Assembly: GCF_002283365.1 (NCBI RefSeq)
Contig: NZ_MQWD01000001.1
Location: forward strand, 3,483,951-3,547,950
Reading direction: 5' to 3'
Length of the DNA: 64,000 bases
DNA from: Rubrivirga marina
Lineage (GTDB): Bacteria > Bacteroidota > Rhodothermia > Rhodothermales > Rubricoccaceae
Part shown: positions 12,081-17,246 of the stretch, piece by piece
How positions within the stretch are numbered: position 1 is the stretch's first letter
Layout of the letters: the number at the start of each line of letters is the position of its first letter
The notes under the pieces: generated by a model
What the model saw: only the letters and a program-made list of their open reading frames with translations
The model's database searches: none
What the model was told of the DNA's origin: nothing
Position numbers and translations under genes: made by a program

Positions 12081-12746
12081 ATGCGCGCTTCGTTCGTCTC
12101 GCTTCTCCTCGCCCTCACGGCCTGCCAATCGGACCCCGAGGTCGAGGCGCTGCCGTCCACCCCCGAGATCCCGGCCTACGCGGGCGACCTCTCTCCGATC
12201 GACGAAGGGACCGCCGTCCCGGGCTTCGCTGCGTTCCGCGACACGCTCCGCGGAGTCGTCGCCCGCCGTGACACGGCCGCGCTGCTCGGCCTCGTCGCGA
12301 CCGACGCTCGGCTCTCGTTCGGCGACGGTGCGGGCGGCCCCGACGAGTTCGACCAGACGTGGTTCGCGTCGACTCCGGAGGAGCCCGTGTGGTCGGTCCT
12401 CGAGCACGTCCTCGACCACGGGAGCGTCGAGGAGGACGGCGCGGTCGTCGTCCCCTACGTCGCGGGGTTCTGGCCGGACACGCTCGACCCCTACACCACC
12501 GTCGTCGTCCCCGGCCGCGACGTCCCGGCCTACGACCGGCCCGACGGCACGGAGGTCGCCCGGCTCACGGAGATCGCCCTCCCGACGATGGCGCCCGACG
12601 ACGACGGCTGGCGGCCCGTCACCCTGCCCGACGGGACCGGCGCGGTCGTCGAGGCGGACGCGGCCCTCAGCCCGGTCGGCTACCGCGCCACGTTCTGGGA
12701 CGACGGCGACGGCTGGCGACTCCGCTCGTTCCTCGCTGGCGACTGA
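12081..12746 (+). CDS. hypothetical lipoprotein
   Basis: 221 residues with a lipoprotein signal ([15 protein letters not shown], Cys at 15) and an acidic mature protein. The C-terminal half (residues about 120-215: [49 protein letters not shown]) resembles bacterial SH3-like envelope modules; this is a weak visual similarity. ATG 12081 follows a CTCTCCCCCACCCC leader. It is divergent from hisI with 127 bp between the starts. Followed by a palindrome at 12753-12772. Confidence 0.75.
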
Positions 12747-12752
12747 CCCCGG

Positions 12753-12772
12753 CCGCCTCGACGCCGAGGCGG
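12753..12772. terminator. palindrome after lipoprotein gene
   Basis: CCGCCTCG and CGAGGCGG (8-bp arms, loop ACGC) start 6 bp after the lipoprotein stop. Same family as the palindrome at 11515-11532. Candidate terminator without a T-run. Confidence 0.5.
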
Positions 12773-12807
12773 GCACGGCGGCATGGGGTCGGAGGCCTGT
12801 GGGCCCG

Positions 12808-12912
12808 GCCGCTCCGACGAGCGCGACGACCCGCTCGAGACCTAGACTTCCGCCTCGACCGTGTCACCCATCGTCCCGGTCTGGAGTGTTATCACTCGTC
12901 CCGGCCGCTACA
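12808..12912 (+). mobile_element. decayed right end of an IS481-family element
   Basis: This 105-bp stretch aligns with the right end of the intact element (16580-16685): it encodes GRSDERDDPLET-stop in place of GRFDERDYQLKT-stop, then keeps the double inverted-repeat motif (CACCCATCGTCCCGGTCT followed by CACTCGTCCCGGCCGCTACA). Similarity disappears to the left, so the rest of the copy has been deleted. The outer TACA end is at 12909-12912 and supplies the stop codon of the neighbouring decarboxylase gene on the minus strand. Confidence 0.85.
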
Positions 12913-14467
12913 CGACGACAACGGGTGCGGCGGCTGCGGCCGTGCCCGTCTCTCTGTCGATGTCGTGCCCGAGCCGGCGGAGGTCGTCGAACACCCGTTC
13001 GATGTCTTCCAGCCTCGTTCGGTGGGAGCAGATGGAGAGTCGAAGGACGGTGCGGCCGCGGAGCTGCGAGGTCATCACGAAGGCCAACCCGCTGGCCCGG
13101 ATCGCGTCGGTGATCGCCTGGTTGAGGCGGTCGAGGTACTCGCTGTGCGCGTCGACGTCGTCGCGGAGCCGGGCCGGGACGAACCGGAAGCAGTAGAGGT
13201 TGAGGACCGGCGCGTGGAGCGGCTCGAAGTCGGGGTCGGCGCGGACGAGGGCGTCGAGGTGCTCGGCGCAGCGGACGTTCTGACGGAGGAGCGCCCGGTA
13301 CCCCTCGGCCCCGTAGTGCTTCAGCGTCATCCACACCTTGAGCGCCCGGAACCCCCGCGACATCTGGGGGCCGAGCTCGTAGAAGTCGTGCCCGTGGTAG
13401 CCGTCGGGGAGGATCCCCTGGAGGTACGACGCCTCCATCGTGAACGCGCGCCGCTGCGTCACGGGGTCGCGGAAGAGGACGCACCCGCACTCGTACGGGA
13501 CGTAGAGCCATTTATGCGGGTCGAGCGAGACGGAGTCCGCCCGATCCAGCCCGGCGTAGAGCAGCCGTTTCTCGGGGAGCATGGCCCCGACGGCCCCGCA
13601 GGCCCCGTCGCCGTGTAACCACAGCCCGTACTCCCGGCACACGTCGGCGATCTCGTCGAGGGGGTCGATGGCGCCGACGTTGACGGAGCCGACCTGGGCG
13701 ACGACGCAGAACGGGAGGTCGCCACGAGCACGGTCCTCCTCGATCATCCCTCGGAGCGCGCCCACATCCATCGTAAAGTCGCCCCGGCTGGGGACGCGGC
13801 GGAGCGCCTCACGGCCGAGGTTCAGCATGTCCACGGCCCGGACGAGCGAGACGTGGCCCTCGTGGTCGGAGGCGTAAACGAGGAAGCGGCCGGTGCGGGC
13901 CTCGTCCTGGAGCCCGCGCGGGGTGGTGTCGTAGGGGGCCGCGTTACGGAGGGCCGTGTGGAGCGCGGTGACGTTGGCCATCGTGCCGCCGCTGACGAGG
14001 ACGCCGCCGCACGCGGGGTCGAACCCGATCAACTCAGCGAGCCACGCGAGCGTGCGCCGCTCGACCTCGGTGGCGGACGGGGCCGGCTTCCAGCCCCCGG
14101 CGTTCATGTTGACCGACGCCGCGAGGGCCTCGGCGAGGATGCCCATCGGGGTTCCGGACCCCATGACGTACCCGAAGTAGCGCGGGGAGGTGTTGTGGGT
14201 GGCGTTCGGGAGGACCTTCTCGTCCCAGTCGTCGAGGATGCGCGCGGGTTCCTGGCCGTGTTTGGGAAGAGGTTCGTCGAAGGTGCGCGCTACTTCTTCC
14301 GGTGTTCGTCCCGCGAAGACAGGCAGGTCAGGGACGTCGCGGAGGTGGTTGGCGATGGCGTCGATGACTCGGTAACCGAGCGCGCGGAAGTCTTCGGGGG
14401 CGAGGTCGCCGTCGAACCACGCTTCGGCGACGGGCTCATCTAAGGGAGGAGGCTCAGGCATGTTCAT
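12908..14467 (-). CDS. PLP-dependent (group II, aromatic-L-amino-acid type) decarboxylase
   Basis: Predicted amino-acid decarboxylase (PF00282). 519 residues with TPEEVARTFDEPLPKHG, FGYVMGSGTPMGILAEALA, the cofactor-stacking VSGGTMANVTAL, HGDGACGAVG containing the PLP-binding Asp, and the Schiff-base Lys in SLDPHKWLYVPYECGC. Substrate (Trp, Tyr, DOPA or another) cannot be read from sequence. ATG 14467 or the second ATG 14461 starts it. The tail ends in an odd Ala/Val run and the stop TAG is formed by the end of an IS remnant, so the last few codons are not original. Its start lies 24 bp from an attC site; it may be a third cassette or the adjoining chromosomal gene. Confidence 0.92.
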   Translation of the reverse strand: MNMPEPPPLDEPVAEAWFDGDLAPEDFRALGYRVIDAIANHLRDVPDLPVFAGRTPEEVARTFDEPLPKHGQEPARILDDWDEKVLPNATHNTSPRYFGYVMGSGTPMGILAEALAASVNMNAGGWKPAPSATEVERRTLAWLAELIGFDPACGGVLVSGGTMANVTALHTALRNAAPYDTTPRGLQDEARTGRFLVYASDHEGHVSLVRAVDMLNLGREALRRVPSRGDFTMDVGALRGMIEEDRARGDLPFCVVAQVGSVNVGAIDPLDEIADVCREYGLWLHGDGACGAVGAMLPEKRLLYAGLDRADSVSLDPHKWLYVPYECGCVLFRDPVTQRRAFTMEASYLQGILPDGYHGHDFYELGPQMSRGFRALKVWMTLKHYGAEGYRALLRQNVRCAEHLDALVRADPDFEPLHAPVLNLYCFRFVPARLRDDVDAHSEYLDRLNQAITDAIRASGLAFVMTSQLRGRTVLRLSICSHRTRLEDIERVFDDLRRLGHDIDRETGTAAAAAPVVVV

Positions 14468-14490
14468 GGAAGCAACAGAGAGCTTGGCCG

Positions 14491-14618
14491 CCTAGACGCT
14501 TGGCGATTCAGCCGCCGCGAGTGATGGCACGACGGTCAGACGAAGCTATGACGGCTGTGCCGCACGGACGAGCCGAGGACGCTGGCACTCGCGGTCGGCC
14601 TGCAAACGCTAGTTATGT
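14491..14618 (-). other. integron attC site downstream of the lipoprotein cassette
   Basis: Read on the minus strand: R'' box CCACATAAC (14618 side), L'' GTTTGCAGGCCGACC, a long imperfect stem, L' GGCGGCTGAATCGCC and a right end AAGCG-TCTAGGC. The arms CACTCGCGG and CCGCGAGTG are a perfect 9-bp continuation of the stem; extra G bases on the L'' arm correspond to the extrahelical bases of attC sites. R'' is complementary to the first bases of its own cassette (GTTATGTG at 15238-15245), as the cassette model demands. The core triplet is GTC, one change from GTT. Length 128 bp. Confidence 0.85.
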
Positions 14619-14625
14619 GGCCCCC

Positions 14626-15228
14626 TCAATCGGAGGGCCGCGACCGTACGCGGTCGTTCATCGAGTCGAAGTGGGAGTCCACACCGACGGCGAGTAGGCT
14701 GTCGTTGCGGAGCCAGAAGGCGATCCGCCCCCCTCCGGTCGTGTCGTCGACGAACACCTCCGTGTCGTACGGCAGGTAGGAGAGGTTGGCCGCGAGCGGC
14801 CAGTTCCGGCACCGCCACGACTCCGGGAAGGCCCGCTCGACTTTGGAAGCCGGGTCCCCGGCCTCGAACACCTGAGGACCGGCCGCCAGCGGCCCGAGGC
14901 GGAGCGGGTACCAACCGGGGTAGGCGAGCGAGTCGCGGACCGTGGTGAACCCGAGCGTGTCGGCCTCGACGGCGAAGACCATGACGCCGAACACGTCGGT
15001 CCAGACCAACTCTTGATACGACGTGTCCGGCGCTCCAAACTGAGCCCGGAGCTGCTCCGGAGTAGACCAGAGCGGCAAGTCGCCGACCGTCCACCCGTCG
15101 GTCTCCACAACGCTGTAGAAGTCCCCTCCGCTGTCGTAGACATCAGAGCAGGCGGCTCGGCGCTCGGCTTCCGACATCCCGCCGCAGCCCACGATGAGGA
15201 GGAATGGGAGGGTCAGAAGCTGCCTCAT
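14626..15228 (-). CDS. cassette-borne lipoprotein, unknown function
   Basis: 200 residues with a lipoprotein signal MRQLLTLPFLLIVGC (Cys 15). The mature protein has Tyr/Trp/Asp-rich stretches (WTVGDLPLWSTPEQLRAQFG, LPYDTEVFVDDTTGGG, FWLRNDSLLAVGVDSHFDS) and Cys pairs; no family recognised. A GTG at 15240 would add four residues but overlaps the attC site upstream, so ATG 15228 is preferred. The stop lies 8 bp before the R'' box of attC 14491-14618, and the start 11 bp after attC 15239-15363: exactly the compact layout of an integron gene cassette. No promoter is visible; cassette genes often depend on outside promoters. Confidence 0.85.
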   Translation of the reverse strand: MRQLLTLPFLLIVGCGGMSEAERRAACSDVYDSGGDFYSVVETDGWTVGDLPLWSTPEQLRAQFGAPDTSYQELVWTDVFGVMVFAVEADTLGFTTVRDSLAYPGWYPLRLGPLAAGPQVFEAGDPASKVERAFPESWRCRNWPLAANLSYLPYDTEVFVDDTTGGGRIAFWLRNDSLLAVGVDSHFDSMNDRVRSRPSD

Positions 15229-15238
15229 CGCAGGGGAC

Positions 15239-15363
15239 ACATAACGATTTGCGATTCAGCCGCCGCACGCGGCGCGGCGACGGGACGGAGCGGAGGATAC
15301 GTCGACGCTCACGCGAGGCGAGAGCGCTGGCGCGTGGGGTCGGCCTGCAAGCGCTGGTTAGCT
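15239..15363 (-). other. integron attC site between the two cassettes
   Basis: Minus-strand reading: R'' GGCAGCTAAC (15366-15357), L'' GCGCTTGCAGGCCGACC, long stem, L' GCGGCTGAATCGC, then AAATCG-TTATGTG with core GTT at 15245-15243. It matches the 14491-14618 site in both ends (GGCTGAATCGC and TTTGCAGGCCGACC / CTTGCAGGCCGACC) but not in the loop, the usual attC pattern. R'' is an exact 10-bp complement of GTTAGCTGCC at 17076-17067, the first bases of its cassette, across 1.7 kb. Overall form follows the classical 59-base-element (TAAC...TTCAAGCCGAC...GCGGCTTAAC...GTTA). Confidence 0.88.
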
Positions 15364-15371
15364 GCCCGTGC

Positions 15372-15421
15372 TGTATGGACCGGGACGAGTGGTAACAGAA
15401 TAGACCGGGACGATGGGTGAC
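15372..15421 (+). repeat. left terminal inverted repeat of the IS481 element
   Basis: TGTA end followed by two CCGGGACGA-GGTRAC motifs (from 15380 and 15405). The 42 bp from 15380 match the reverse complement of 16636-16677 with about five mismatches. Confidence 0.88.
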
Positions 15422-15470
15422 AGATCCGTTCACCCCGGCATGGCCCTCCCCGCGCTCTCGCGCTCACGCC

Positions 15471-16618
15471 GTGCCCTGGACCGTCACCGCCCCCATGCTC
15501 CAACGAGCCCACCTCGTCGCCCTCCACGCCGAGGGCCTCCACTCCGTCGCCGACCTCGCCGCCCGGTTCGGCGTCTCCCGCAAGACGGCCTACAAGTGGA
15601 TCGACCGGCACGCCGAGGGCGGCACCGACGCGCTGGGAGACCGGTCCACGTCGCACGGGGCCACCCGCACACGACCCCGCCAGAGGTCGAGGCCCTCGTC
15701 GTGGCGGCGCGGGAGAAGCACCCGACGTGGGGGGCGCGGAAGCTCATCCCCTGGATCGCTAAACGACACCCGGACGCGCCTTTGCCTGCGGCCTCGACGG
15801 TCGGCACCATCCTCAAGCGACACGGGCTCGTCGAGCCGCGACGCCGTCGGCGCGTGGCGGCCCACCCGGGGAGCCGCCCGCTCGTCGCCGACGCGCCATG
15901 TGACGTGTGGACGGCCGACTACAAGGGGCAGTTCAGGACCGGCGACGGCGAGGTGTGCTACCCGCTCACCGTCTGCGACGCGCACAGCCGGGCCATCCTC
16001 TGCTGCGAAGGCCACTCCTCCGTCGAGCAGTACGGGGCGCTCCGGGCGTTCGACCGCCTCTTCCGCGAGCACGGGCTGCCGACGGCGATCCGGACCGACA
16101 ACGGGACCCCGTTCGCGACGCAGGCGATCTGTGGCCTGTCACGACTCAGCGTGTGGTGGATCAAGCTCGGGATCACGCCCGACCGGATCGAGCCCGGGCG
16201 CCCCCAGCAGAACGGACAACACGAGCGGATGCACCGGACCCTGAAAGCGGAGACGGCACGCCCACCGGAGGCCGACATGGCCGCGCAGCAACGACGCTTC
16301 GACGCGTGGCGGGCCGAGTTCAACGACGAGCGGCCCCACGACGGCCTCGGCGGTGAGACCCCCGCCTCCCGCTACGCCCCGTCGCCGCGCCCGATGCCCG
16401 AGCGTCCGCCCGAGCCGGAGTACCCGGGGCACTTCGAGGTCCGGCGCGTCTCGCGGTGTGGGACGTTCAAGATGAAGGGCCGCCAGCGTTTCCTGAGCCA
16501 GGCCCTGTCCGACGAGACGATCGGGTTCGAGGAAGTGGCCGACGGGGTCTGGGCCGTGCTCTTCTACGAGACCGAGCTCGGCCGCTTCGACGAGCGGGAC
16601 TACCAGCTCAAGACCTAG
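15471..16618 (+). pseudogene. IS481-family transposase, frameshifted
   Basis: DDE integrase-core transposase. Frame one starts at GTG 15471 (VPWTVTAPMLQRAHLVALH) and contains the helix-turn-helix SVADLAARFGVSRKTAYKW; it loses family similarity near 15650. From about 15655-15680 the family sequence continues in the -1 frame (TTPPEVEALVVAAREKHPTW) through DVWTADYKGQF, RTDNGTPF and GRPQQNGQHERMHRTLKAE, which hold the three acidic residues, to the stop at 16618. A one-base loss or a recoding event would explain it; no clear slippery heptamer is seen, so I call it a broken gene. Restored length is about 382 residues. Confidence 0.85.
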
Positions 16619-16635
16619 ACTGCGACCTCGACCGG

Positions 16636-16685
16636 GTCACCCATCGTCCCGGTCTAAAGTGTTACCCATCGTCCCGGCCGCTACA
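16636..16685 (-). repeat. right terminal inverted repeat of the IS481 element
   Basis: Partner of 15372-15421, ending TACA at 16682-16685. On the minus strand its first bases read TGTAG, which places a TAG stop in the neighbouring cassette gene. Confidence 0.88.
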
Positions 16686-17052
16686 TGCTAGGGTCCGAGT
16701 CCTCGAACCACACGTTCCGCAGGCGCCGGGTGTACACCTCCGGCTCGTCCTCGAACAGATGCTCGCGGCCCTCGTCCGCCAACACTCCTGTCTCGAGGAG
16801 GGACTCGACGACGACGTCGGTCATGTCCGTGTATGTCGCCAACTCGTCCCGCGACCCCGAGGGGAACGGCCAGTCGTCGTACGTGTCGCTGACGAACGCG
16901 ACGGCGTCGCCCGCGTGGTCCTGGAGGTAGCGCGTCGTGATCGCCGCGGCGACCGGGTTGCCGGCCAACTCGTTCCGGGTCCCAGCGCCGATGTGGGCGA
17001 ACGAGACGACCTCGCGCTTCGAGTGGTTGACGAGTCGGTAGAGGGCGCCCAT
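16681..17052 (-). CDS. cassette-borne protein of unknown function, 3' end altered by IS
   Basis: 123 residues, no signal peptide or membrane segment, acidic, no recognised family; seen segments are SFAHIGAGTRNELAGNPV, RYLQDHAGDAVAFVSDTYD and EVYTRRLRNVWFEDSDPSM. ATG 17052 lies 15 bp after the cassette junction (GTTAGCTGCC, 17076-17067). The stop TAG belongs to the IS end. Removing the IS and one TGC copy restores ...DPSTGS and a TAA at 15360-15358, inside the R'' box of the following attC site, which is where many cassette genes stop. The original protein was therefore about 125 residues and probably remains functional. Confidence 0.75.
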   Translation of the reverse strand: MGALYRLVNHSKREVVSFAHIGAGTRNELAGNPVAAAITTRYLQDHAGDAVAFVSDTYDDWPFPSGSRDELATYTDMTDVVVESLLETGVLADEGREHLFEDEPEVYTRRLRNVWFEDSDPSM

Positions 17053-17246
17053 GGGTAGGCACGGAGGGCAGCTAACCAGGAGTTATGAGGCCGGGAAGAT
17101 GCGGCCGTCGGCCGGATAGTACGCAGACGTGAGGAGACACGACCGGGCCGTAACCCCCTCCTTCAACGCGTTCCGCCCGACAACGAAGACCACACCTCAT
17201 CGCAAATGCGGCGGCCCTTCGCATAGTACCAGTCCGAGCGCCCCGC
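17053..17246. other. cassette array boundary, no gene
   Basis: 194 bp between the first cassette gene and the glycosidase stop. It holds the recombination junction (minus strand CTG-GTTAGCTGCC at 17079-17067). Minus-strand sequence just before it, CGGCCTCATAACTCCTG, resembles the right half of an attC (L' plus spacer), but I find no matching left half with TAAC, so this may be a degenerate attC or the attI-like entry site. No integrase gene is present. Confidence 0.5.

Follow-up and report, generated by a model that had tools for sequence, protein, structure and literature searches.

How does a chromosomal gene come to end in the terminal bases of an insertion sequence (IS), and what became of the rest of that element? 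The question is raised by a decarboxylase gene of Rubrivirga marina, contained in a 64,000-nucleotide stretch of the genome (the window; contig NZ_MQWD01000001.1, positions 3,483,951 to 3,547,950). Window coordinates are used below unless genome positions are indicated. That IS insertions supply stop codons to genes is common knowledge and the mechanism is ordinary, but the setting is unusually clear: the occupied and the empty version of one cassette in a single genome constitute a natural experiment on how an IS rewrites the stop of a gene.

The IS right end at the decarboxylase stop codon

The gene (12908–14467, minus strand) is the last of a cassette block and encodes a PLP-dependent (group II) decarboxylase of 519 aa, which matches Pyridoxal_deC (Pfam PF00282, E=4.9e-70). 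In a BLASTN search with window 12700–12912 (minus strand), 110 bases align with 86.4% identity (E=2e-35) to the right end of a full-length IS481-family element located at 15372–16685. This solo right end, remnant A (12803–12912, plus strand), is recovered independently by a whole-genome search (G000:C1:3496753–3496862, E=1.2e-30). Both searches bear out the initial annotation, which had placed a remnant of an IS481 right end against the decarboxylase, oriented in the same way as the full copy at its own cassette gene. The position given for it was right within a few bases, the alignment beginning at about 12803 rather than at 12808.

On the minus strand the open reading frame ends with GTT GTC GTC G|TG TAG, in which the bar marks the junction (G|TGTAG). 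Reading of the sequence places the TAG at 12910–12908, where it is formed by bases 3–5 of the IS end (TGTAGCGG...), as had been claimed. The IS contributes only the last two bases (TG) of the final Val codon. The Ala/Val codons of the protein tail, which had been described as left by the IS end, precede the junction; derivation of the tail from the element is ruled out, and the tail is host DNA. Terminator function of remnant A was considered and rejected, its structure being no better than that of shuffled sequences and no terminator match being present. An Rfam scan of the window at the gathering threshold returned no match.

The full-length copy and its empty site

The full-length element (15372–16685, plus strand) measures 1314 bp, as delimited by its ends and by the empty site described below, and carries terminal inverted repeats of the TGT...ACA type (TGTATGGACCGGGACGA... 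and ...TCGTCCCGGCCGCTACA). Its transposase (15417–16618, plus strand) is of the IS481 type: NF033577 matches both the DDE part (E=1.5e-52) and the HTH part (E=9.9e-11), each match falling below the full-length cutoff because the transposase is frameshifted. A relative in genome G075 (49% identity) has a single unbroken frame, and its tblastn alignment to the window needs two frames, one for the HTH part and another for the DDE part, with the switch near 15650–15665. The copy had been described as intact; its structure is complete from 15372 to 16685, but the transposase frame is interrupted. Barring a programmed frameshift, which is considered unlikely, this copy is probably inactive.

The element interrupts a cassette, having inserted upstream of the attC, between the gene (16681–17052, minus strand; 123 aa) and the attC itself (15236–15364, minus strand; 129.8 bits with attC covariance model R1, in whose training set it is included). 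An IS-free paralogue of the gene (G000:C1:3018149–3018514, 94% nucleotide identity) provides the empty site. The paralogue ends with GAC CCG AGC ACG GGC AGC TAA CC (protein ...SDPSTGS*), its TAA forming part of the GCTAAC attC core; by the same comparison, the native TAA of the interrupted gene (native length 126 aa) is held by the outer core of the attC beyond the IS. The interrupted gene instead ends with GAC CCT AGC A|TG TAG (...SDPSM*), the stop coming from the IS end, and on the other side of the element the sequence resumes as ATAC|AGCACGGGCAGCTAACC. Where the paralogue has one AGCA, the full copy shows AGCA|TGTAG...ATAC|AGCA. The target duplication is either AGCA (4 bp, with the IS one base shorter at its left end) or GCA (3 bp, with the IS reading TGTA...TACA), and both fit equally well. 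The pair proves that the full IS removed the native TAA from the frame, created a TAG and duplicated AGCA or GCA, at a net cost of three residues to the gene product. Upstream of the 123-aa gene, at about 17050–17080, lies a collapsed attC whose outer cores, CATAAC and GTTAGCTG (minus strand), are five bases apart.

The DDE transposase matching NF033577 and the TGT...ACA ends place the element in the IS481 family. Target duplications of about 4, 15 or 25 bp are typical of this family; the AGCA reading would fit the reported cases of ~4 bp (PMC10045372), and the equally good GCA reading gives 3 bp. The differences from the family are the frameshifted transposase and the concentration of copies in cassette arrays. 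In the IS481 members ISLxc2 and ISLxx4, the stop codon of the transposase lies in an NCTAGN target (PMC2516522), so that the target terminates the transposase, whereas in the present copies a host gene is the one stopped by the IS end; the NCTAGN motif is absent at the junctions of these copies.

The cassette block and the decarboxylase C-terminus

A setting missed by the initial annotation is that both IS-terminated genes are integron cassettes. They belong to a 4.5-kb attC-bounded block without an integrase (CALIN), whose edge is marked by remnant A. The block (12775–17242) is absent from the syntenic locus of the congener (genome G002), in which the flanking genes are neighbours separated by about 650 bp of other DNA; homology with the congener ends at 12774, about 30 bp outside remnant A, and resumes at 17243. 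As a CALIN contains at least two neighbouring attC sites, so this block contains the site at 15236–15364 and one directly upstream of the decarboxylase (14488–14619, minus strand; 119 bits with R1, likewise in the training set). The gene between them (14626–15240, minus strand) encodes a 204-aa lipoprotein of no family. The covariance model, built from eight attC sites and reported at E<=0.01, finds 36 sites in the genome with those eight included. They form three clusters and one single site (3658 kb): one cluster is in the window, and those at 213–223 kb and 3004–3021 kb each lie beside a complete integron integrase (G000:C1:223689–224648 and 3023011–3023988). No other integrase exceeds the cutoff, and none lies near the window block. 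Each integrase stands at the head of an array in which about a dozen attC sites or more were detected, and the array at 3018 kb holds the 94% identical copy of the 123-aa cassette. The block resembles a CALIN or chromosomal integron in its attC-bounded genes of one direction and in sharing a paralogous cassette with an array of this genome that has an integrase; it differs in that the distal cassette has no attC and an IS relict in its place. Judged from these sequence boundaries, remnant A is the outermost recognisable piece on the distal side of the inserted block, where the attC of the decarboxylase would be expected.

The nearest homologues of the decarboxylase (59–64% identical) occur in Haloferax, Cesiribacter, Anaerolineae, Gemmatimonadetes and others, and the genomes of the same genus and family that were searched give no match above about 42% identity. 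This spread over archaea and several bacterial phyla, with nothing close in those genomes, points to acquisition by horizontal transfer. Near the homologues no attC was detected, and the decarboxylase cassette is consequently not traceable through them. The homologues all align as far as about residue 505, beyond which they diverge. The alignment had been proposed as a check on the claim of an IS-supplied stop: the last ~11 residues of the decarboxylase match no homologue, and none of those compared shares its last 10 residues and stop. The gene was likely shortened by the insertion, although its original end is not reconstructable because the C-termini of the homologues are naturally variable. 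The earlier claim that both copies created stops with the same terminal bases thus holds for the cassette gene, by its IS-free paralogue. The decarboxylase is consistent with it, no empty version of its site having been found.

It is a real possibility, if somewhat short of an even one, that the IS landed where the decarboxylase natively ended, or just behind that point, exchanging its stop for an equivalent nearby TAG with no material change to the protein. The decarboxylase has 38 residues after the conserved HRT motif, within the range of 24–45 seen in close homologues, and the insertion of the full copy cost only three residues net; against this stand the unmatched last ~11 residues, and with no empty site at hand the proposal is inseparable from the account favoured here. 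That account, in which we place good confidence, is that IS481 insertion at the 3′ ends of cassette genes supplies their stop, and that at the decarboxylase an older insertion was followed by a deletion leaving a solo end. The element would insert in integron-derived arrays with its right end facing the gene. In one reading phase of three, its first bases would form the new stop (TG|TAG), and in the other phases translation would end at the TAA (22–24) or TGA (47–49) of the IS. What happened at the full copy, where TAG replaces the TAA within the attC, would have happened earlier at the decarboxylase. A later deletion would then have taken the left ~92% of the IS together with the distal part of the cassette, attC included, so that the surviving right end would both supply the stop codon and mark where the cassette block meets the chromosome.

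Other right ends and the distribution of the lineage

The whole-genome search finds four right ends in the genome, of which A is the remnant and C the full copy. Right end B (genome positions 212402–212499) lies behind the final cassette gene of the first integron array, on the distal side of the last attC detected there (213046). Here the IS is read in another frame, which adds a CSGRDDG tail to the gene product and ends it at a TAA instead of a TAG. Right end D (3790871–3790920) borders an ORF of 57 codons (junction TTTAG) and lies in no array. The arrangement recurs in G007, which represents a different genus of the family: a short array is followed, about 75 bp beyond its last attC, by a right end in the same orientation that falls within the start of a lipoprotein-like gene. 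At L069:2137–3222 in G007 the IS end has lost its third-frame stop (TGA to AGA), and the lipoprotein start consequently continues in frame into an extended read-through ORF that overlies an antisense gene. The right end of G006 is situated about 42 bp past a gene's stop, with no attC detected there. Three of the four right ends in the genome fall within cassette arrays, which make up 0.64% of it (P about 1e-6 if independent, a value that overstates the strength somewhat because A and C share one block, 2.5 kb apart). Among 114 genomes of the order, matches to the IS occur only in G002, G006 and G007 and, weakly, in G034; among 245 genomes of the class, the IS end is seen only in this family (Rubricoccaceae). 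No close copy covering most of the element was found in plasmids, and viral contigs gave no close copy.

The intact right end contains, by computation, one stop in each frame (TAG at 3–5, TAA at 22–24 and TGA at 47–49), a feature missed by the initial annotation, and the left ends likewise hold three-frame stops. One in three insertions into a coding frame should therefore yield a TAG junction, so that such a junction is not special; the three among four junctions observed in the genome do not depart significantly from this expectation (binomial about 0.11). All five solo ends (A, B, D and those of G006 and G007) are right ends that face the 3′ end of a gene; the same searches turned up no solo left end. 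Under the insertion and deletion account, right ends alone would survive, as deletions sparing the upstream gene and its stop would persist and those in the opposite direction would damage the gene. The same uniformity, together with the stops in all three frames, could also be expected if selection had kept the solo ends as gene-end modules (stop or terminator), as opposed to neutral leftovers. We regard this as improbable: left ends carry three-frame stops too, no terminator-like signal was found in the remnant region, fold energies equal those of shuffles (z from -0.31 to 0.17) and the third-frame stop of the G007 copy has been lost by mutation and is now read through. Chance resemblance of GC-rich DNA to an IS end, which has nothing but high GC content in its favour, is refuted by the genome-wide E-value of remnant A (1.2e-30) and by a reversed control pattern, which matched nowhere in searches of 20 and 245 genomes.

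A broader and more doubtful proposal is that this IS481 lineage may insert preferentially into integron cassettes, always with its right end toward the gene, and may decay repeatedly to array-capping solo right ends that fix cassettes in the chromosome by removal of the distal attC. Elements of the IS1111-attC subgroup occur with integron cassettes in a single orientation; their transposase is of the DEDD type, and they insert at a fixed position within the attC. The present lineage shares the tie to cassettes in one orientation but is of the DDE/IS481 type, with junctions in gene 3′ ends or within genes and no common target visible. Membership of the subgroup (named in PMC11187229) is ruled out by the IS481 transposase and the insertion upstream of the attC. 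As far as titles and the beginnings of abstracts reveal, the literature found on IS481, integrons and attC contains no apparent description of an IS481 lineage at integron array ends, and the repeated association may be new, if mildly so. It is worth recording, as is the clean empty-site pair. The arrangement suggests a route by which cassettes could become permanent chromosomal genes: an IS would land between gene and attC and supply the stop, and a later deletion would remove the attC, leaving a cassette that is no longer excisable.

No IS relict was found at the distal end of the second array (array II). By eye, that end (L171, G000:C1:3001500–3004600) contains a RelBE-type toxin-antitoxin-like pair beside degenerate attC-like stretches. 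Two attC sites, L153:3829–3958 and L152:1775–1904, are nearly identical across the two integron arrays and have the same model score, a similarity that suggests exchange of cassettes between the arrays.
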